Shown one piece after another: positions 12,792-55,047 of a stretch of DNA of 64,000 bases (position 1 is its first letter; the number at the start of each line of letters is the position of its first letter). The notes beneath the pieces were generated by a model. It was not told the DNA's origin, searched no databases, and saw only the letters and a list, made by a program, of their open reading frames with translations. Source of the DNA: Oscillospiraceae bacterium. Lineage in GTDB: Bacteria > Bacillota > Clostridia > Oscillospirales > Ruminococcaceae. The DNA lies in NCBI GenBank assembly GCA_009781425.1, contig WQYC01000002.1, positions 1 through 64,000 of the forward strand, in the 5' to 3' direction. A program made the position numbers and the translations under genes.

Positions 12792-14444
12792 CTAATCTAC
12801 GCGCGTTTCAGTTCCGTGAAAATATACCGTAAAGGTTATGTTAGATGTTATTACTGTGTATTCGTTAACCGGTGTATTGCCCGCTAACCATTCGGTTCTA
12901 TAGGTTGTTATGTATAATATTTCATAAAACGGGGGTAAATGGAAGGTATCTATCCTCTCCTCATCATCCCGCCATGCATTCGGCAACATCCCCACCTGCT
13001 CACCGTGCCTGACTATTCTGCTGTTTTCTCCGGGCCAGTTAATTACGCCGCCGAAGGTTCCCAAAACGAATGAAACGGTATATTCTTTAAGAGAAAACCG
13101 TGCCTCCAAAGCGGTATTTGCCGTTGCCGCAAAAGTATAGCTCAAGCTGTCGCTTACTTTTGCGCCGCCGCTGTACCAGCCGTCAAAATTATGGCTTGCT
13201 TCGGCGTTTGCAATCACCGTAACCGATGAACCGTTATTAAATGCTCCGCCGCCGGAGGCTGAACCTCCTGTTCCCGCCGATACAGAAATATTGTGAGTTA
13301 CAGGCGGTGCTGTCGTTGTAACAGGCGGTGCGGTTGTCGTTGTTGTAACCGGTGATGCTGTTGTCGTTGTGACAGGCGACGATGCGGTTGTTGTTGTAAC
13401 GGGGCGCGTTGTTGTCGTTGTAACAGGGCGCGTTGTCGTTGTAACAGGGCGCGTCGTCGTTGTAACGGGGCGCGTTGTCGTCGTAACGGGGCGCGTTGTC
13501 GTCGTAACAGGCGGCACTGTCGTCGTTGTAATGGGGCGCGTTGTTGTAACAGGCGGTGCTGTCGTCGTTGTAACAGTCGGCGTCGTTGTTGTGACTGCGC
13601 GCTGTGTAGTAGTTGTTGTATTTGGGCGGGTGGTCGTAGTCGCGGCAGGTGCGGAATCCGCTTGAACTGCAGCGGCTGTAGTGGTTACGGGCGGGGCGGA
13701 TTCTTCTTGACTCTGCTCTGTGACTGTAACGAGCAGACTTTCTGTATCTTCGGGAATAAAATCATGCTCGGTTGAAGCTTGCTGTTCGTCGTATGCTTCG
13801 TTCGGTTCTCCCGCTGAAGAAGGCAGTTCTTTGCTTGCCGGTTTATCATCTCTCACATATAAAATCTGAGTAATATTATCGCCCTGTCCTAAAAGCGTAA
13901 CGATACCGACTGCCAAAACAACGGTAAGAGCAAGCACGCCAATGACAGCTGAAACCACCTTTGCTATTTTAAATATCAGTTTTTTCATTCTTTTAGGGGA
14001 GCTTTGAAGAAATTTATCTGCCAAGCGGTCTATAACAGCTTCAAAAAACTCGCTGTTGCTGGCAGAAACACCGTTTTGCATTCGCAATATTTCTATGTCC
14101 TCCGGCAAAGCCTCAGGCCATTCAAAGCCCCTCAGCATAACCGGAACAACATTTTTACCCGCTTTATAAGCGTGAGATATTTCTTTATGTACCCAGTCGC
14201 CCTCATTGATACAGCGGTCAAGACAGCCTGCCGAGCATACAAGCACAAAATCCGTACACCCGTCAATAATTTCCAACAGTTTATCATTGAAGGTGCCGGC
14301 GTTTAAATTCTCCACATCTAAAAAAACACGGTATCCTTTTTCAGCGAGCCTGTCGCGCAGAAGGATAGCCATCGCTTCTCCGCCGTCTCGTCTGTATGAA
14401 AGAAAAACATTATACTTCTTTGAATAATCAAGCTTACCCTGCAT
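12792..14444 (-). CDS. TIR domain - single TM - Thr-rich linker - InlB/Flg_new-like repeat protein
   Basis: NVFLSYRRDGGEAMAILLRDRLAEKGYRVFLDVENL, DWVHKEISHA (WxxxE), TM VVSAVIGVLALTVVLAVGIVTLL, VTTTTRP repeats, VTVIANAEASHNFDGWYSGG. Start revised to ATG at 14444 (RBS ggagg); track start at 14525 lies inside attL. Confidence 0.85.
   Translation of the reverse strand: MQGKLDYSKKYNVFLSYRRDGGEAMAILLRDRLAEKGYRVFLDVENLNAGTFNDKLLEIIDGCTDFVLVCSAGCLDRCINEGDWVHKEISHAYKAGKNVVPVMLRGFEWPEALPEDIEILRMQNGVSASNSEFFEAVIDRLADKFLQSSPKRMKKLIFKIAKVVSAVIGVLALTVVLAVGIVTLLGQGDNITQILYVRDDKPASKELPSSAGEPNEAYDEQQASTEHDFIPEDTESLLVTVTEQSQEESAPPVTTTAAAVQADSAPAATTTTRPNTTTTTQRAVTTTTPTVTTTTAPPVTTTRPITTTTVPPVTTTTRPVTTTTRPVTTTTRPVTTTTRPVTTTTTRPVTTTTASSPVTTTTASPVTTTTTAPPVTTTAPPVTHNISVSAGTGGSASGGGAFNNGSSVTVIANAEASHNFDGWYSGGAKVSDSLSYTFAATANTALEARFSLKEYTVSFVLGTFGGVINWPGENSRIVRHGEQVGMLPNAWRDDEERIDTFHLPPFYEILYITTYRTEWLAGNTPVNEYTVITSNITFTVYFHGTETRVD
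13309..13660 (-). repeat. 21-nt tandem repeats encoding VTTTTRP/VTTTTAPP Thr-rich linker
   Basis: gttgtcgttgtaacagggcgc-type units repeated in frame. Confidence 0.85.
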
Positions 14445-14465
14445 AAATAATTCCTCCACACTAAT

Positions 14466-14500
14466 AAAAAAGCGGTGGCGTGAAATTCCCACACCACTAC
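14466..14500 (-). terminator. Probable original host terminator of tRNA-Lys
   Basis: Minus strand gtggtgtgggaatttcacgccaccgctttttt just beyond the displaced tRNA 3' fragment. Confidence 0.55.
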
Positions 14501-14516
14501 CCTGTTTGAATTTAAC

Positions 14517-14563
14517 ATGACCCACCCGCGACTCGAACGCGGGACACCCTGCTTAAAAGGCAG
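14517..14563. repeat. attL (displaced 3' part of tRNA-Lys)
   Basis: atgacccacccgcgactcgaacgcgggacaccctgcttaaaaggcag, identical to 55001-55047. Confidence 0.95.
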
Positions 14564-14636: not shown

Positions 14637-15755
14637 TTAAACAATTGCAAGTTTATTTTTCATTAAAAAATCATCTAATTTGCTCATAGAATTTTTCTTA
14701 AACTGCTTATCAAGATGTGTATAAATTGCCATCGTAGTTTTTATGTCAGCGTGACCCGCCTGCTCTTTGGCGGTTAAAATATCAACGCCGGCAAAATACA
14801 TCATCGTTATAAACGTATGTCGTAACCAGTGAGCGGTAAACCTCGGAACTGCATCTGAACCATATTTTAATTTTAAATCGCTTAAATACTTTTCCCACAT
14901 CTTACGCCATGCCGACCTCGTCATTATTACTCCTCCGGCACTCGGGCATACTAAAAGCGACGTTCTTTTTTGAACCTTTAAAAATTCAACTAATAGTTGA
15001 GGAATAAAAACAACTCTCATGCCCGCTTTTGATTTTGTCATATACTTTAAGACCGGTTTTCCGTCTATCATTTCAACGGATTTATTTACATTAATCGTTT
15101 TATTCTTTAAATCTATATCAGACCACGTCAGAGGAATCAACTCACCTCGTCGCAGACCCGAAAACATCATAATCATAGCGGCAAGCTGTGCGCGGTGAGG
15201 CGTATCTGTTATAAAATTACGTTCATCTTCATTTAATGCTCGCTTTGTAACAGTCTCTGCCGCTTTAGGAATTTTTACGGAAGATGCAGGGTTATAATCT
15301 ATAACTCTGTTATCAATTGCGATTTTAAATACTGACTGAGCGACAATTTTTAAATCATTCAGAGTTTTTTTAGAATAAGGCTTACCCGTCTGTTCACAGG
15401 GTTCAGTTGCATAATGATTTATTAGATATTGTATATCTGAAGATTTTATTTTTGATATTTGCATATTATACAAAGGTTCAAGATTATCAATACGGTTAAA
15501 AATAGACAAAAACCAATTATGAGAGACTTCGAGTTTTTTAAAAGTAAGCCAACGTTCCGCCCAATCCTTAAAAGTATCATCTTGCGAGCCTACATCAATA
15601 CCCTTTTTCAATGATAATTTAAGCGCAAAAACCTTTTCGTCTACTTCTTTTTGAGATTTTCCGTAGACAAATTTATATTTAGAAACTCCATCATAAACAC
15701 CAAGATAAACTTTAGATTGAAAACGCCCGTCAGCTCGCTTTTTAAGTTTTGACAT
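14637..15755 (-). CDS. Tyrosine recombinase / phage integrase
   Basis: MFSGLRRGELIPLTWSDID, HWLRHTFITMMYFAGVDILTAKEQAGHADIKTTMAIYTHL. Confidence 0.95.
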   Translation of the reverse strand: MSKLKKRADGRFQSKVYLGVYDGVSKYKFVYGKSQKEVDEKVFALKLSLKKGIDVGSQDDTFKDWAERWLTFKKLEVSHNWFLSIFNRIDNLEPLYNMQISKIKSSDIQYLINHYATEPCEQTGKPYSKKTLNDLKIVAQSVFKIAIDNRVIDYNPASSVKIPKAAETVTKRALNEDERNFITDTPHRAQLAAMIMMFSGLRRGELIPLTWSDIDLKNKTINVNKSVEMIDGKPVLKYMTKSKAGMRVVFIPQLLVEFLKVQKRTSLLVCPSAGGVIMTRSAWRKMWEKYLSDLKLKYGSDAVPRFTAHWLRHTFITMMYFAGVDILTAKEQAGHADIKTTMAIYTHLDKQFKKNSMSKLDDFLMKNKLAIV

Positions 15756-29029: not shown

Positions 29030-30830
29030 AAAAATATTTCTTACATTAAAGCCGCCGCCGGATATGACGCTTGCTGAGTGGGCGGATGAATATCGCGTGT
29101 TGTCACAAAAGACTTCTGCCGCGCCGGGTAAGTGGAAAACGTCAAAAGCACCTTATCAAAAGGAAATAATGAACGCGATTTCGGACATAGGAGTTCACAA
29201 AGTCGTAGTTATGTCGGCGGCACAAATAGGGAAAACTGACGGATTTATACTTAATCCGATTGGTTATTTCATGGATTATGACCCTTGCCCCATTATGGTT
29301 ATGCACCCCGATTTGCAAAGAGCAGAGGAATTCAGCAAAACTCGGCTGACGTCAATGCTTCGTGATACTCCTGTGCTTCGTGATAAAGTAAACGACAAGA
29401 CACGCAATAGCGGAAACACGATTTTGCACAAGGAATTCCCCGGCGGTTATGTTGCTATTGTCGGTGCGAACTCGGCGGCAGGGCTAAGCAGTCGCCCTGT
29501 GCGAATATTGCTTGCTGATGAAGTTGACAGATACCCTACTTCAGCCGGATTAGAAGGCGACCCGCTTTTACTTGCGTCAAAGCGTTTAACCACGTTTTGG
29601 AATAGAAAAGAAGTATTTATTTCAACACCTACAATTAAAGGTATATCACTTATTGAAATTGAATTTGAGAACAGCACACAGGAAACATGGAACGTTCCCT
29701 GCCCCGACTGCGGCGAGTTTCAGCCGCTTGAATGGGCACAAGTAAGCTTCGATAAAGAGAACCTTGACGAAATTAATTATATTTGCGCTTATTGCGGTTC
29801 GGTTAATTCCGAAATTGCATGGAAAGAAAAGTTCACAAGCGGCAAGTTTATTGCGAAGTTCCCCGAACGAAAAACGCGCGGTTTTTACCTTAATAGCTTC
29901 GCTTCGCTTTTTGTAGAGTGGAAAGAAATAGTTGAAAAGTTTCTTATAGCGAATAAGGAAGCTAAAAAAAGAAATTTTGAAAAGATGAAAGCATGGACTA
30001 ATACCGAAATGGGGCAGGTTTGGGAAGAGGAAGGCGATAAGCTTGAACCTGATGAGTTGTACAACCGCCGCGAGAAATATAACGCGGAAGTACCCGAAGA
30101 TGTTTTATGTCTTACCGCCGGAATTGATACACAGGACGACCGTTTCGTTGTTGAAGTCGTCGGGTGGGGTGAGGAAAAGGAATCGTGGGGAATTATTTAT
30201 AAAAAAATTTACGGTGATTTAAAACAGCATAAAGTATGGAACGACTTAGACACTTTTTTAAATCAGACGTTCACCCGCGCTGACGGAGCGAAGCTAAAAA
30301 TTATCTGCGCTTGCATGGACACGGGCGGACACTTTACAAACGAGGTTTATAAATTCTGTAAACCGCGATACACACGCGGAATACGTGCAATTAAAGGCGG
30401 TAACACCGGATATGGAAAGCCATTTATTCCTAAACCGTCTAAAAGCAATAATGTAGGAGTTCTTCTTTGGACGCTCGGAGTTGATACCGGAAAGGCATTT
30501 ATATATTCGCAGCTTGCTATTACTGAAGAGGGAGCTAACTACTGCCACTTCCCTAAAGGTAATAAAAACGAAGACACCGCAGGATATGACGAAGAATATT
30601 TCAAAGGCTTAACATCTGAACACAGGGTTACGAGATATAAACGAGGCAGAGCACAGTATGTTTGGGAACTTAAAAATAAAAGCTACAGGCGCAATGAGCC
30701 TCTCGATTGCCGAAACTACAACTTGGCGGCGTTAGAGATTTCGGGTATTGTATTAAAGAAAGAAGAAGCAAATAACAAAACACCACAAACAAAAAAGAAA
30801 GGCAGAAGTATCCGAGGCGGAATAAAATAA
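29001..30830 (+). CDS. Terminase large subunit (lambda GpA family)
   Basis: MTLAEWADEYRVLSQKTSAAPGKWKTSKAPYQKEIMNAISD, VVVMSAAQIGKTDGFILNPIGYFMDYDPCPIMVMHPDLQRAEEFSKTRL. Confidence 0.93.
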   Translation: MKKATLKLFKKIFLTLKPPPDMTLAEWADEYRVLSQKTSAAPGKWKTSKAPYQKEIMNAISDIGVHKVVVMSAAQIGKTDGFILNPIGYFMDYDPCPIMVMHPDLQRAEEFSKTRLTSMLRDTPVLRDKVNDKTRNSGNTILHKEFPGGYVAIVGANSAAGLSSRPVRILLADEVDRYPTSAGLEGDPLLLASKRLTTFWNRKEVFISTPTIKGISLIEIEFENSTQETWNVPCPDCGEFQPLEWAQVSFDKENLDEINYICAYCGSVNSEIAWKEKFTSGKFIAKFPERKTRGFYLNSFASLFVEWKEIVEKFLIANKEAKKRNFEKMKAWTNTEMGQVWEEEGDKLEPDELYNRREKYNAEVPEDVLCLTAGIDTQDDRFVVEVVGWGEEKESWGIIYKKIYGDLKQHKVWNDLDTFLNQTFTRADGAKLKIICACMDTGGHFTNEVYKFCKPRYTRGIRAIKGGNTGYGKPFIPKPSKSNNVGVLLWTLGVDTGKAFIYSQLAITEEGANYCHFPKGNKNEDTAGYDEEYFKGLTSEHRVTRYKRGRAQYVWELKNKSYRRNEPLDCRNYNLAALEISGIVLKKEEANNKTPQTKKKGRSIRGGIK

Positions 30831-30835
30831 AATAT

Positions 30836-30905
30836 TTCACACAACTTTCACACAAAACCTCTTGACATTATGTCTTGCATGAAATATAATATATGTAAGA
30901 CATAA
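30836..30905 (+). promoter_or_regulatory. Moron cassette 1 promoter plus palindromic operator
   Basis: TTGACA(30862)-17-TATAAT(30885); 13-bp arms TTATGTCTTGCAT/ATGTAAGACATAA flank the -10. Confidence 0.75.
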
Positions 30906-30919
30906 AGTGAGGTGATGAA

Positions 30920-31093
30920 TTGAGTCCAAGAACAGGTCGACCAAAGGGCGAAAATCCTATATTCAAAAGTCTTACAATTCGGCTCGATACAAAAACCGAA
31001 AAAATACTTAATAAGTATTGTGAGGAAAATCAAGTTAGCCGTGCAGAAGCTATAAGGCGAGGGATTCACCTAATCGGTCAGCAAAAGAAATAA
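30920..31093 (+). CDS. Ribbon-helix-helix (CopG-like) regulator, TTG start (not in ORF track)
   Basis: (M)SPRTGRPKGENPIFKSLTIRLDTKTEKILNKYCEENQVSRAEAIRRGIHLIGQQKK*. Confidence 0.75.
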   Translation: MSPRTGRPKGENPIFKSLTIRLDTKTEKILNKYCEENQVSRAEAIRRGIHLIGQQKK

Positions 31094-31226
31094 GAGCAAC
31101 GCTCCACCTTGGACAGTTTAGCGTTACTCTTATCAACCCGACAGAGTTTCCTCTATCTGAAATCCATTATATCAGATAGAGAAGCTCCTGTCAAGTATTA
31201 AAATTTGAAAAGGAGTTTTTATTATG
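31091..31226 (+). repeat. Cassette structured spacer, copy 1
   Basis: Gap-free alignment to 46557-46692; last 103 nt 101/103 identical; two stem-loops. Confidence 0.9.
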
Positions 31227-31679
31227 GAAAAAAGAACCGTAAATAAAAAGACAAATCGCAAAACACAATCTTGTGATAAAATTATAAATTTTAACAGAAC
31301 CACACGCGAAAATAGCCCCCAATTATTTATTGAAAAAGGCGGTATTTTAAAAACATTGAATTCATTAGGCGTTACTGTATATTTTACACAACCCAATAGT
31401 GTACATTTAAAAATGGACGGTGAACAAAAATATGCTATATTGACCAGAAGACACGATACTGGATTTTATTCAATATATATAAGTAATAAGTTATCTTTTA
31501 AAAAAACACAAACCGCATTATGTCACGAACTTGGACACATAGTATTAGGACATTTAAGCAATGAAAAATACTATAAAATGACAACAGAGCAAAGAGAAGA
31601 TGAAGCCGATAAATTTACATCATTTATGATGCCGTATATTTTCGAGCCGAAATATCGATATAGAGGTGAAAATGTCTAA
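31224..31679 (+). CDS. ImmA/IrrE family metallopeptidase (cassette 1 cargo)
   Basis: TALCHELGHIVLGHLSNEKYYKMTTEQREDEADKFTSFMMP. Confidence 0.8.
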   Translation: MEKRTVNKKTNRKTQSCDKIINFNRTTRENSPQLFIEKGGILKTLNSLGVTVYFTQPNSVHLKMDGEQKYAILTRRHDTGFYSIYISNKLSFKKTQTALCHELGHIVLGHLSNEKYYKMTTEQREDEADKFTSFMMPYIFEPKYRYRGENV

Positions 31680-32316
31680 ATTAATTGATTTAACAGGTCA
31701 GCGGTTCGGGCGGCTTACAGTTGTAAGCCGCGCCGAAAATGCTAAATGCAGGGTAGCAAGATGGAAATGTTTATGCGTTTGCGGAAATACTACATTTACC
31801 AGAAACGACTATCTTATAAAAGGCAAAACTAAAAGTTGCGGGTGTTTAGGCAGCGAACTCGCAAGTAAACGAATGAAACAAAATCCTATTAACAAGAGCC
31901 ATAATAAATCAAAATCACGAATATATAATATTTGGAGTACAATAAAACAACGGACAACAGACCCAAACCATAAAGAATATCATAATTATGGCGAACGCGG
32001 AATTATAATGCATAAAGAATGGTTCAATAGCTTTCAATCGTTTTATGATTGGTCTATACAGAACGGTTATAAAGAAAACTTATGTAATGACCGTAAACAA
32101 AACAACGGTAATTATTCACCGGACAATTGCAGGTGGATAACCAATAAAGAAAACTGTAATAATAAAAGAAATAACCGATACATAACAATTAGGGAAGAAA
32201 CAAAAACACTTTCACAATGGGCAGAAATTTATAAAATTAATTACTTTACTGTATATTCACGAATAAAACGCGGTTGGAACGAAATTGAAGCCCTAACGAC
32301 ACCAGTTAGAAAATAA
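31672..32316 (+). CDS. Phage HNH/AP2-type homing-endonuclease-like protein
   Basis: LTGQRFGRLTVVSRAE...WKCLCVCGNTTFTRNDYLIKGKTKSCGCL...IYNIWSTIKQRTTDPNHKEYHNYGERGI. Confidence 0.65.
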   Translation: MSKLIDLTGQRFGRLTVVSRAENAKCRVARWKCLCVCGNTTFTRNDYLIKGKTKSCGCLGSELASKRMKQNPINKSHNKSKSRIYNIWSTIKQRTTDPNHKEYHNYGERGIIMHKEWFNSFQSFYDWSIQNGYKENLCNDRKQNNGNYSPDNCRWITNKENCNNKRNNRYITIREETKTLSQWAEIYKINYFTVYSRIKRGWNEIEALTTPVRK

Positions 32317-46042: not shown

Positions 46043-46050
46043 GTAAAACT

Positions 46051-46106
46051 TTCACACAACTTTCACATAAAACCTCTTGACATTATGTGGATACATATGT
46101 TATAAT
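46051..46106 (+). promoter_or_regulatory. Moron cassette 2 promoter
   Basis: ttcacacaactttcacataaaacctcttgacattatgt 37/38 identical to cassette 1; TTGACA(46077)-18-TATAAT(46101). Confidence 0.75.
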
Positions 46107-46156
46107 GATAACAAACAAGGGAAGCTTGTAAATATCATTTAACAGGAGGTGAAAAA

Positions 46157-46321
46157 ATGACTACTAAAGAATTTGAAAGTTTAACCGGTGGAATGGCATT
46201 AAACACGATTAAACTAAAACGCGGTGAAATGTCTATAGAAGATTTTGAAAAGTATATGAAAATGACATTAGGCACAGAAATGTTTCAAAAAGCTATAGAA
46301 ATCTTAGACGGAAAAGAATAA
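46157..46321 (+). CDS. Small cassette protein, 54 aa (not in ORF track)
   Basis: caggaggtgaaaaa-ATG; MTTKEFESLTGGMALNTIKLKRGEMSIEDFEKYMKMTLGTEMFQKAIEILDGKE*. Confidence 0.6.
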   Translation: MTTKEFESLTGGMALNTIKLKRGEMSIEDFEKYMKMTLGTEMFQKAIEILDGKE

Positions 46322-46325
46322 CAGC

Positions 46326-46360
46326 AAGGGGCGGGGAGCCGCCCTCCCTGCCCCTTTATT
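46326..46360 (+). terminator. GC-rich stem-loop terminator inside cassette 2
   Basis: aaggggcggggagccgccctccctgcccctttatt. Confidence 0.65.
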
Positions 46361-46397
46361 GAATAACAGGGGGTGAATCGCAACGGAAAAGAAAGCA

Positions 46398-46559
46398 ATG
46401 GGCAGACCGACAGACGACCCTAAAAATTTAAGCACAAGAATTAGACTGTCGGATAAAGACATCGAAATGATTGATTTTTGCTGTGATTTTTATAGCATCA
46501 CAAAGGCAGAGGCAATAAGGCGCGGTGTCAAAGAATTATATGAAAAAGCAAAGAAATAA
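46398..46559 (+). CDS. Ribbon-helix-helix (CopG-like) regulator 2 (not in ORF track)
   Basis: MGRPTDDPKNLSTRIRLSDKDIEMIDFCCDFYSITKAEAIRRGVKELYEKAKK*. Confidence 0.7.
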   Translation: MGRPTDDPKNLSTRIRLSDKDIEMIDFCCDFYSITKAEAIRRGVKELYEKAKK

Positions 46560-46692
46560 GAGCAACACTCTACTTTCGACGGTTAAATGTTACTCTTATC
46601 AACCCGACAGAGTTTCCTCTATCTGAAATCTATTATATCAGATAGAGAAGCTCCTGTCAAGTATTAAAATTTGAAAAGGAGTTTTTATAATG
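46557..46692 (+). repeat. Cassette structured spacer, copy 2
   Basis: Gap-free alignment to 31091-31226. Confidence 0.9.
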
Positions 46693-46959
46693 CAAAAAAT
46701 CACACAGCAAGAAGTAAAAAACATCAAAAACTATTTATATGAAAATAAAGTCCACAGCTATCCATGCAACTGCGGAAGCTTACCCAGAATCATAGTCGAG
46801 CGCACAACATGGGGTACTCCGGTAATAATTATGAAATGCCAAAACTGTAAAAACACAAGCTCAGCAATCGGCACAACTCACATTGATGCATTAAATAAAG
46901 CGTTAAACCACTGGAATCATAAACAAGAACGTATTACACTAATGGGGGTATCGGCATAA
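46690..46959 (+). CDS. Lar-like (restriction alleviation family) zinc-ribbon protein (cassette 2 cargo)
   Basis: SYPCNCGSLPRIIVERTTWGTPVIIMKCQNCKNTSSAIGTTHIDALNKALNHWNHK. Confidence 0.6.
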   Translation: MQKITQQEVKNIKNYLYENKVHSYPCNCGSLPRIIVERTTWGTPVIIMKCQNCKNTSSAIGTTHIDALNKALNHWNHKQERITLMGVSA

Positions 46960-48729
46960 ATGGGTGAAATTGTAACAGTTAAAAATCAAGCCACGATTGA
47001 GAATTATTTAAAGGTAGATGAACACAACACGGTTTCATCTATTAAACTGTATGAGTTTTTAAAACTGCCGCCGGATAATTACAATCAATGGTGCAAAAAG
47101 AACATTGAGGATAATCCGTTTGCCTTTATCGGTGAGGATTATGCAAATTACTTCACCTACGAAGAGCGTGGAAAGAAGAAAATAACAATTTACAGGCTCT
47201 CTGTAGAATTTGCAAGAAAGCTTAGTGTTTTATCCGATTCTAACTATAGATATGCGGCTTTTCATTACTTTAACCGCATTTTAGACGAGCTTGAGCCGAG
47301 CGAGTTAAGCACGGTAAATCATTACGAAACAATCGACAGCCGAGAAGTTGCGGAGATGATTGGTAAGCGACACGACCATTTAATCAGAGATATTCAAAAA
47401 TATTGCGAGGTTTTAGGAGCCCCCAATTTTGGGGACTCCGAAGGAAACTTCAAAATTGAGGACTCCGCAGGAGAAACCAAAAATGGATTATCCGATTTCT
47501 TCATTGAAAGCAATTATATCAGCGAACAGAATAAAAAACTCCCCTGCTACCTCCTCACCCGCAAAGGCTGTGAATTCGTAGCTAATAAAATGACAGGCGA
47601 AAAAGGCATAAAATTTACAGCGGCATATATCAACAAGTTTCATGAAATGGAAAAGACTTTGCAATCGCCTACAAAATTCAAACAGATTGAATCTAATTTT
47701 GATATTAAAACAACAGAAATTAAAATTAGACTATCAAACCAATATTTAAAGCTGTCTAAATTATCCGCGCTATCGCAGGAAGAAAGAGACGCTAACCAAG
47801 TAACAATTAACAATGAACAATTAACAGTAGGGGCGAACAGTGTTAGCCCGAATAACAGCGGCGCGAACGGATTAAAAGGCATGACGATTTCTGCTGTTAT
47901 AATTCAGCGCAATTGGAATGGAGACGGGAAAGACCGCGTTATGGACTGCGGAAGCTTTGAAATTGACGACTTGGGAAGTAACGGCGGTGCTGACAGGGGT
48001 TCTACGGTGACCTTGAAATGCACTTCGCTTCCAAATTCATCTACCGTGCGAACGCAGGAGAAGTCACGGGCGTGGGAAAATATTAAGCTTTCGTCGATTG
48101 CGGCTCAGATTGCTAAAACAAACGGCATGGACATTATGTTTATATCTGATTTTGACCCTGTTTACGAGAGGCGTGAGCAGGTGCTTGAATCGGATATTTC
48201 GTTTTTAAGCGGACTTTGTTATAACGCAGGGATTTCGCTAAAAGTTACGAGCGGAATAATTGTGCTTTTTGACGCGACGGAATTTGAGAAAAAGCCTGCT
48301 GTGCGGAAAATTGAACGAGGAAAAGCTGACATTAAATCGTGGCGGTTTAATGCGTCTACCAATGATGCGAATTATTCGCGCTGCCGTGTTAGCTATACGA
48401 ATCCTGTTACGGGGATTACGATTGAGTATACATACACGCCGCGCGACGCTGACCCGGACGGGATTACGCTTGAAATTAACGAGAAGGTAAGCTCGAGGAA
48501 TGAGGCGCGGAATCTTGCAATGCGAAGATTACGGCAGAAAAACAAAGAAGCGTTTTCGGCGGCGTTTACACTTGTCGGGGACGTTAGTTTATTTGCGGGG
48601 GTTTGCGTAGAGGTCGTAAGGTGGGGATATTTTGACGGCAAGTATATTATTTCACGAAACACAAGCAGTATAACCGGAAGCGGATATACTGCACAGTTAA
48701 TGTTGAGGCGGGCGGAGGACGAAGAATGA
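46960..48729 (+). CDS. AntA-Rha antirepressor fused to N-terminally truncated gpD (late control/baseplate hub)
   Basis: AntA: YLKVDEHNTVSSIKLYEFLKLPPDNYNQWCKKNI; Rha: ETIDSREVAEMIGKRHDHLIRDIQ...YLLTRKGCEFVANKMTGEKGIKFTAAYINKFHEME; gpD: TISAVIIQRNWNGDGKDRVMDCGSFEIDDL...ESDISFLSGLCYNAGISLKVTSGIIVLFD. Confidence 0.85.
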   Translation: MGEIVTVKNQATIENYLKVDEHNTVSSIKLYEFLKLPPDNYNQWCKKNIEDNPFAFIGEDYANYFTYEERGKKKITIYRLSVEFARKLSVLSDSNYRYAAFHYFNRILDELEPSELSTVNHYETIDSREVAEMIGKRHDHLIRDIQKYCEVLGAPNFGDSEGNFKIEDSAGETKNGLSDFFIESNYISEQNKKLPCYLLTRKGCEFVANKMTGEKGIKFTAAYINKFHEMEKTLQSPTKFKQIESNFDIKTTEIKIRLSNQYLKLSKLSALSQEERDANQVTINNEQLTVGANSVSPNNSGANGLKGMTISAVIIQRNWNGDGKDRVMDCGSFEIDDLGSNGGADRGSTVTLKCTSLPNSSTVRTQEKSRAWENIKLSSIAAQIAKTNGMDIMFISDFDPVYERREQVLESDISFLSGLCYNAGISLKVTSGIIVLFDATEFEKKPAVRKIERGKADIKSWRFNASTNDANYSRCRVSYTNPVTGITIEYTYTPRDADPDGITLEINEKVSSRNEARNLAMRRLRQKNKEAFSAAFTLVGDVSLFAGVCVEVVRWGYFDGKYIISRNTSSITGSGYTAQLMLRRAEDEE

Positions 48730-49379: not shown

Positions 49380-49667
49380 ATGAACATAAATATTATGCCC
49401 GCCTCGCGTGAGGAGGAAATAAAGCAAAATGTCGCTATGATTTTAGCGACGCCGACATTTTCGGTGCCGCTTGACCGTGAGTTCGGAGTAAGCACGGATA
49501 TTACCGACAGACCTATTCAAGTCGCGCAGTCGCTGATTACCTCTGAAATATACGAAAAAATAGGCAGATACGAGCTGAGGGCAGAAATAGTCAGCATTAC
49601 ATTTGAGCGTGACGATAAAAACGGAAAGCTGATTCCGAAAGTGGAGGTGACGGACAATGGACAATGA
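49380..49667 (+). CDS. Baseplate gpW/gp25-like
   Basis: EEIKQNVAMILATPTFSVPLDREFGVSTDITDRP. Confidence 0.75.
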   Translation: MNINIMPASREEEIKQNVAMILATPTFSVPLDREFGVSTDITDRPIQVAQSLITSEIYEKIGRYELRAEIVSITFERDDKNGKLIPKVEVTDNGQ

Positions 49668-50802
49668 ACAATTGACAATTGACAATTTACGAAGTTTACC
49701 CGACGTTAATTTTGTTGATATAAACACGGAAACACTTCTGAACGCTGTTATTTCAGCGGCAGAGGTGTTTTTAGACAGGACGTTATTCCCTGCTGACCCG
49801 GTACGGCAGTTGTTAACATGGCTCGTGGATATAATAGTTCATGAGCGGGTGCTGATTGATACAGCCGCTAAACAAAATTTAGCACGGTATGCTGAGGGTG
49901 ATTATTTAGATTCGCTTGCAGATATGTTCAGAGATGTGCAGAGATTGCAACCGCAAGCGGCAAGGACTACACTGCGCTTTTTTATTTCAGCACAGCAAAA
50001 TTCTGCGGTGACTATTGAAGCGGGCACGCGAGTAAGCGTTAACGGTGAGATTACTTTTGCTACTACCGAAACGGCGACAATACCTATTAATGAAATGAGC
50101 GTCGAAGTGCCTGCGGTGTGTTTAACTACGGGAATAATCGGAAACGGATTCACAGCGGGGCAGATTTCGCAGATTGTGGATTTATTTCCGATGTTTGAGC
50201 GTGTTGAGAATATCACTACCAGCGAGGGGGGAGCGGAGTTAGAGTCTGACGACTCGCTTTACGACAGATACAGGCTGAGCTTAAAAACATTTTCAACTGC
50301 GGGGCCCGAGGCAGCTTATGAGTATCATACGAAGTCGGCGTCTGCGAGAATTGCCGACGCTAAAGCATATACCCCTTCGCCGGGGCGCGTTGATATTCGG
50401 TTTATACTTTCGGACGGAGAGTTTCCCGATGAAGAAATGAAGCAGTTAGTATTAAAAACTGTTTCAGCTGCTGATACTCGGCCGCTGACAGACTTTGTAA
50501 CTGTGAACGCGCCCGACGTTATAAATTTCGACATTGACCTTACATATTTTATTCCTCGGACACGGGAAAACAGCGCGGCGGTTATTCAGAGGGACGTTGA
50601 AGCGGCAATCGAGCAGTATAAATCATGGCAGACGCAAACTATGGGGCGGGATATAAACCCCGATGAGCTTACGGCTTTAATTCGGGGAGCGGGTGCGAAA
50701 AGAGCCGAAATAAGAAGCCCTGCTTTTACTGTTGTTGATAGACGCGCAGTTGCGGTTCTGCAAGTTGAAAACGTAATTTACGGGGGAATCGAAGATGATT
50801 AA
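49657..50802 (+). CDS. Baseplate J-like protein
   Basis: LARYAEGDYLDSLADMF...GTRVSVNGEITFATTETATIP...TSEGGAELESDDSLYDRYRLSL. Confidence 0.88.
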   Translation: MDNEQLTIDNLRSLPDVNFVDINTETLLNAVISAAEVFLDRTLFPADPVRQLLTWLVDIIVHERVLIDTAAKQNLARYAEGDYLDSLADMFRDVQRLQPQAARTTLRFFISAQQNSAVTIEAGTRVSVNGEITFATTETATIPINEMSVEVPAVCLTTGIIGNGFTAGQISQIVDLFPMFERVENITTSEGGAELESDDSLYDRYRLSLKTFSTAGPEAAYEYHTKSASARIADAKAYTPSPGRVDIRFILSDGEFPDEEMKQLVLKTVSAADTRPLTDFVTVNAPDVINFDIDLTYFIPRTRENSAAVIQRDVEAAIEQYKSWQTQTMGRDINPDELTALIRGAGAKRAEIRSPAFTVVDRRAVAVLQVENVIYGGIEDD

Positions 50803-55000: not shown

Positions 55001-55047
55001 ATGACCCACCCGCGACTCGAACGCGGGACACCCTGCTTAAAAGGCAG
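55001..55047. repeat. attR
   Basis: Identical to 14517-14563. Confidence 0.95.

Follow-up and report, generated by a model that had tools for sequence, protein, structure and literature searches.

What kind of genetic unit separates the tape measure gene from gpD in a prophage of this Oscillospiraceae gut bacterium, and how would the genes that it carries be controlled? The window, that is, the whole stretch of 64,000 nucleotides analysed here, contains a prophage of ~40 kb between two copies of a 47-bp direct repeat, at 14517 and at 55001, of which the latter is the end of a tRNA-Lys gene. A host ORF (12792-14525) starts within this attachment repeat; its N-terminal stretch reads like a TIR domain, and it includes a long Thr-Thr-Val/Pro repeat. 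Two cassettes, one behind the terminase gene (cassette 1, from 30830 on) and one behind the tape measure gene (cassette 2, from 46045 on), share a leader of 44 bp (30830-30873 and 46045-46088) and a spacer of 150 bp (31084-31233 and 46550-46699), each 93% identical between the copies, and a search across the assembly found no third copy. Both cassettes have a plus-strand sigma-70 promoter matching the consensus at 12/12 positions (46077 in cassette 2, 30862 in cassette 1), and in both a gene for an RHH protein of PHROG 876 comes first in the operon (E=1.5e-13 each). These features bear out the original prediction that cassette 2 is an inserted unit with its own promoter and an RHH gene, forming one system with cassette 1 through the same leader and spacer; the 54-aa ORF and the 89-aa CxC...CxxC ORF that it listed are likewise present. 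It missed the minus-strand promoter, the antisense RNA, and the palindrome and anti-Shine-Dalgarno (anti-SD) sequence of the spacer, as well as the antirepressor-gpD ORF. The leaders and genes of the two cassettes are as follows.

46045-46106, plus strand: left end of cassette 2 with the leader promoter (TTGACA 46077-46082, 18 bp, TATAAT 46101-46106; 12/12), a 93% repeat of the cassette 1 leader
46157-46321, plus strand: 54-aa ORF, the conserved front ORF of this cassette version, with homologues in the relative phage loci L067 (61% identity) and L155
46326-46356, plus strand: GC hairpin between the front ORF and the RHH gene, recurring with compensating changes and having no U-tract
46398-46559, plus strand: RHH (Arc/CopG-like) repressor gene of cassette 2, PHROG 876, frame open from 46377
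46690-46959, plus strand: 89-aa zinc-ribbon ORF, weakly Lar-like (phrog_599, E=0.003), filling the small-ORF slot
46960-48729, plus strand: AntA (47032-47235)-Rha (47332-47655) antirepressor, joined in frame to C-terminal gpD sequence (from ~47857)
30830-30890, plus strand: cassette 1 leader, with the inverted repeat TTATGTCTT...AAGACATAA around the -10
30920-31093, plus strand: cassette 1 RHH gene
31224-31679, plus strand: cassette 1 ImmA/IrrE-type peptidase ORF (Peptidase_M78)
31666-32316, plus strand: cassette 1 HNH endonuclease (phrog_374, E=1.6e-72); the same kind of ORF lies 3' of the spacer in L065

Both spacers contain, on the minus strand, TTGACA-17 bp-TATAAT with an extended -10, 12/12 in each. 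The RNA predicted 3' of this promoter, with a start site placed by the consensus, opens with a short tetraloop hairpin at its 5' end, followed by a long hairpin and a tail rich in U. At the sequence level, it is convergent with the mRNA, lies between the RHH gene and the downstream gene and ends at the RHH stop codon. Its U-tract is complementary to the 3' end of the RHH gene, namely to the final lysine codons and the stop codon, and the RHH alignment shows an invariant lysine close to the C-terminus. Of 34 terminator hairpins, 20 have a U-turn (YUUGG) loop on one of the strands, which is suggestive only. Neither the spacers of the window nor those of relatives matched any Rfam family at the gathering score, and weak sub-threshold matches (DUF2815, HrrF, Clostridiales-2) were judged to be chance because none recurred in relatives. 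The spacer elements are as follows.

46632-46660, minus strand: antisense RNA promoter of cassette 2, TTGACA-17-TATAAT with TG extension, 12/12
46550-46625, minus strand: predicted antisense RNA of cassette 2, ~72-76 nt, with a 5' tetraloop hairpin and a terminator overlapping the RHH stop codon; fold z -5.3
31084-31159, minus strand: predicted antisense RNA of cassette 1, from a minus-strand promoter at 31194 to 31166 (12/12); fold z -5.9
46606-46626, plus strand: left arm of the mRNA palindrome (GACAGAGTTTCCTCTATCTGA), covered by the antisense RNA and compared below in own and swapped pairings
46638-46658, plus strand: right arm (TCAGATAGAGAAGCTCCTGTC) with the anti-SD sequence AAGCTCCT at 46648-46655, pairing with the left arm and with the Shine-Dalgarno (SD) sequence
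46674-46681, plus strand: cargo SD sequence (AAAAGGAG)

The same spacer was found in unrelated phages through independent search routes: exact DNA patterns in IMG/VR, a covariance model run over whole genomes, tblastn of the consensus RHH protein in INPHARED, a protein search of IMG/VR, and a DNA pattern on the -10 core in GTDB genomes, the last replacing a protein scan of genome contigs because the RHH alignments were too divergent. Most loci from a first DNA-similarity search were dropped after their sequences were read, as only the generic SD stretch AAAAGGAGTTTTT matched. The carriers are phages and prophages of Clostridia, Streptococcus, C. difficile and Fusobacterium, among them Streptococcus phages, C. 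difficile phage phiCDIF1296T and Fusobacterium phage Funu2, together with contigs of Ruminococcus, Oscillospiraceae and others, and Clostridium methylpentosum DSM 5476 (L159 and, judged by its identical RHH protein, L018); the recurrent order is RHH gene, antisense RNA, an optional small ORF, and then an antirepressor (AntA, Rha, Bro-N, ORF6N, KilAC) or an HNH endonuclease. Among 26 non-redundant loci selected by the RHH protein alone, the minus-strand promoter scored ≥10 in 21 (1.4 expected from dinucleotide shuffles) and ≥12 in 12 (0.0 expected). The -10-core scan returned 27 loci. TTGACA stands at exactly 17 bp in 22 of them, and in 21 a short RHH-type ORF ends ~70-90 nt upstream, neither property having been selected for by the pattern. 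Five of the 27 matches, two from Cyclobacterium and one each from Chloroflexi, Gammaproteobacteria and Clostridiales, lack the -35 and the RHH gene and were set aside as chance. Of 28 leaders, 17 have inverted repeats spanning the -10, where 1.3 would be expected; the repeat is clear in cassette 1, and cassette 2 has no clear second operator half-site. In L060, a skipping-rope RNA (966-1045; RF02924, 60 bits) lies just upstream of the leader of an RHH cassette.

The terminator hairpin and the palindrome keep their pairing through 408 two-sided changes among 50 distinct rows, with 84.9% of cells paired against 36-45% in slid controls, a result that leans towards structure because the underlying alignment (A5) was fitted to it. 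This bias is avoided by an alignment-free test, in which each arm was paired either with its own partner or with the partners of other loci. Across 34 loci below 80% identity, own pairings were stronger than swapped ones for the terminator arms (-14.4 versus -4.6 kcal/mol), for the left and right arms (-19.8 versus -10.6 kcal/mol) and for the right arm with the cargo SD (-12.3 versus -8.7 kcal/mol), with 0/20000 permutations in each case, whereas the control pairing of the left arm with the SD did not differ between own and swapped in these loci. A second set of 17 loci gave 5/20000 permutations for the left-right and 50/20000 for the right arm-SD pairing. Since its own left arm and its own SD both pair specifically with it, the right arm is complementary to two mutually exclusive partners; comparison of the sequences demonstrates, besides the gene order and the convergent promoter, an RNA structure conserved by covariation and two competing pairings.

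Alternatively, the palindrome could act at the DNA level as an operator, bound by a regulator that controls the antisense RNA, with the pairing of right arm and SD in RNA being incidental. In both cassettes the DNA palindrome is indeed centred on the -10 of the minus-strand promoter, and complementarity between left and right arms cannot by itself separate DNA from RNA. An operator, however, leaves unexplained why the right arm coevolves with its own SD (0/20000 and 50/20000 permutations in the two sets), and the palindrome sequence is unrelated to the leader inverted repeats, which makes this explanation an unlikely one.

We therefore favour, with a probability of roughly 70%, the reading of cassette 2 as a phage control module arranged like P22 immI, in which the RHH protein, the antisense RNA and the anti-SD arm would place a double lock on the cargo. 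An autorepressed promoter would drive the small RHH gene, followed by the antisense RNA, the small ORF (here the zinc ribbon) and the antirepressor (here AntA-Rha). As a first lock, the RHH protein would shut its own promoter at the candidate inverted-repeat operator. Residual mRNA, or read-through from the tail operon, could then fold in two ways: without the antisense RNA, the left arm would pair with the right arm and leave the cargo SD free, whereas antisense RNA bound to the left arm would release the right arm to pair with the SD and block translation, so that the cargo would be made only if mRNA outnumbered antisense RNA. We infer the production of this RNA, the sign of the regulation and the function of the antirepressor from the comparisons above.

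Several properties of the spacer are consistent with such a switch. The predicted antisense RNA spans the left arm, not the right arm, and when the region under the antisense RNA is blocked in silico, the mean probability that the SD is unpaired drops from 0.34 to 0.10. Of 39 loci, 35 have a left-right pairing stronger than the right arm-SD pairing, and the former is also transcribed first. On the other side, the left-right pairing is not the stronger one in the divergent members L055, L061, L065 and L090, and the switch suits some divergent members badly. Several loci have an SD predicted to be sequestered even without the antisense RNA, and there the ON state would depend on co-transcriptional folding. 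The incomplete operator in the leader of cassette 2 and the shortened C-terminus of its antirepressor also count against the control-module reading.

The genes behind the spacer change far more than the spacer does: the ORF in the first slot differs wholly between the cassettes, while the RNA device and the RHH gene persist. In most loci examined, the spacer is followed by a small ORF of variable sequence and then by an antirepressor (Bro-N with KilAC, Bro-N, ORF6N, Rha or AntA-Rha). A minority (cassette 1, L065, L074 and L003) carry HNH endonucleases of at least two types. HNH-carrying cassettes adjoin the terminase gene in two different phages, lying after it in L003 and between terminase and portal in cassette 1, which suggests homing into that neighbourhood. 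The frequent presence of small ORFs of unknown function, together with the commonness of RHH and antisense antitoxins, could be taken to mean that the small ORF is a toxin held in check by the RHH protein, the antisense RNA or both. Such a toxin-antitoxin arrangement is improbable, as the antirepressor lies directly 3' of the spacer, with no small ORF, in L035, L047, L055, L059 and L069, and the small ORFs do not form one family.

The original prediction had instead suggested a role in lysogenic conversion for cassette 2, as a moron whose Lar-like cargo would be expressed in the lysogen and protect DNA from restriction; on such a reading, the spacer would be only a leader or terminator region. 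The proposed cargo, the CxC...CxxC ORF, is real; its membership in the Lar family was not confirmed. The 89-aa ORF resembles Lar proteins (phrog_599, Pfam Lar_restr_allev) in size and in the spacing of its two Cys pairs, and carries the C-x-C...C-x2-C...WN motif of Lar proteins. It is unlike them in that its one PHROG match is weak (phrog_599, E=0.003) and no Lar family of Pfam or NCBIfam matches at E≤1. The structural comparison with Lar suggested at the time was negative, an AlphaFold model (pLDDT 74) giving no Foldseek match with E<0.05. Homologues were absent from INPHARED, and 247 genomes of the family gave only marginal matches. Taken together, these comparisons point weakly to Lar membership.

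A moron would fit the consensus promoter of cassette 2 and its standing as a separate unit within a late operon, as well as the weak Lar match and the Lar-like Cys motif. Against it stand the complete exchange of the first-slot ORF around a constant RNA device and RHH gene, the usual cargo of antirepressor or HNH enzyme, and the lack of a family or fold match. The conserved double lock, which combines an RHH gene behind a candidate inverted-repeat operator with a convergent antisense RNA, speaks in the same direction, since the cassette anatomy predicts tight repression in the lysogen rather than lysogen-expressed anti-restriction. We accordingly regard a moron as unlikely, and return to the control module for the remainder of the cassette.

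Cassette 2 extends past 46959, because the next ORF is the AntA-Rha antirepressor, in the same operon as the RHH gene, fused to a truncated gpD. Most related phages lack the cassette and have, between the tape measure gene and a gpD with its N-terminal domain, only gpX (~70 aa). Contrary to the condition set beforehand for refuting the original prediction, the region does not belong to a constant, ancestral tail operon. In the window, gpX and the N-terminal domain of gpD are missing, and the antirepressor has lost ~13 C-terminal residues. In L109, whose gpD is 92% identical, the N-terminal domain is retained; the homologous stretch of the window and L109 picks up again next to an ACAATTAACAATG(A/G)ACAATT repeat carried by both. 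The repeat ACAATTAACAATGAACAATT, read as NNEQLT in the coding sequence, occurs at 47800-47835 and 49655-49693 of the window and at 388-426 of L109, one copy being at the deletion junction.

In phage record G1146, whose tape measure is 63% identical, cassettes occupy precisely this site, and gpX is intact next to them. The order there is promoter, 62-aa ORF, hairpin, RHH gene and antisense spacer, then another full leader-RHH-spacer unit inserted at the cargo start codon of the first, and finally small ORFs, a complete 274-aa AntA-Rha antirepressor (73% identical), a terminator and gpX. The proposal that cassette 2 occupies the place of gpX is therefore right in that gpX is absent, though not through simple displacement: as G1146 has cassette and gpX side by side, gpX would have been lost by deletion. 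The simplest history that these comparisons allow is insertion between the tape measure gene and gpX, followed by a deletion that fused antirepressor and gpD. Because that deletion also truncated gpD and removed gpX, this copy of the cassette is probably damaged, and the prophage tail is probably defective, unless the assembly was joined wrongly at 46960-48729.

The hairpin at 46326-46356, which had been proposed as the terminator of the 54-aa ORF, recurs in two relative loci; it lacks a U-tract, as does its counterpart in the relative, and was not called as a plus-strand terminator, so that the hairpin stands and the terminator does not. In the window (46322-46400), L155 and L156, a hairpin with an invariant GGCGGGGAGCCGCC core is followed by GGGGTGAATC..AACGGAAAAGAAA and then by the RHH gene. 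In the RHH frame, no usual start codon lies close to the strong SD; a short GTG ORF that overlaps is conserved. An unusual start, or coupling, is possible for the RHH gene.

A broader proposal is that the RHH gene, together with an antisense RNA that releases an anti-SD arm, constitutes a cargo-independent mobile chassis of Gram-positive phages, locking antirepressors and homing-type endonucleases and able to nest and stack; on the sequences at hand, we consider the chances of this to be even. Cassettes do occur at the start codon of another's cargo and as tandem arrays in some genomes. Tandem or nested RHH-antisense stacks were seen in L136 (G972:C25), L137 (G1086:C46), L138, L140, L183 and L155; genome G972 has eight matches to the RNA model, and in L155 the second unit begins at the start codon of the first unit's cargo.

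Among known systems, the cassette is closest in layout to P22 immI (arc-sar-ant), which likewise has an RHH gene, a downstream antirepressor and a convergent antisense RNA of ~70 nt with its terminator over the RHH stop (predicted here). The P22 operator at the RHH gene's own promoter has a candidate counterpart in the leader inverted repeats, clear in cassette 1 and incomplete in cassette 2; P22 sar occupies 15021-15090 (70 nt), with the terminator over the arc stop codon. In P22, however, sar abuts the ATG of ant and covers the ribosome site, Psar lying inside ant, whereas in cassette 2 the RNA would start near 46625 and leave the SD (46674-46681) uncovered, with the promoter and the right arm between RNA and start codon and an anti-SD switch predicted. 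The cassette also differs in its variable cargo, and no counterpart of mnt was seen. With the ribosome site uncovered and an anti-SD arm in reserve, we file it as a variant of the P22 immI type, not a strict member.

Phage lambda OOP, a ~77-nt antisense RNA that overlaps the end of a regulator gene and acts on the stability of the cII message, is similar in length and position, but has neither an anti-SD switch nor swappable cargo. Plasmid antisense attenuators of the pIP501/pT181 type share the principle of an antisense RNA that flips its target between two exclusive folds; theirs controls transcription termination of rep genes, whereas the predicted target here is the SD of phage cargo. The literature searched, which included few subscription papers, contained no description of a Gram-positive RHH/antisense/antirepressor module, a weak sign that it is new.

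Antirepressors under antisense control have been described chiefly in phages of enteric bacteria. The module described here, if it is real, would give Clostridia, Streptococcus and Fusobacterium phages a widespread equivalent that Rfam lacks, and its compact RNA switch would be testable by simple reporter swaps. Many unannotated ORFs would be named at once, and it would become clear how phage genes of a selfish or dangerous kind, such as antirepressors and endonucleases, can reside silently almost anywhere in a prophage, the late operon included.
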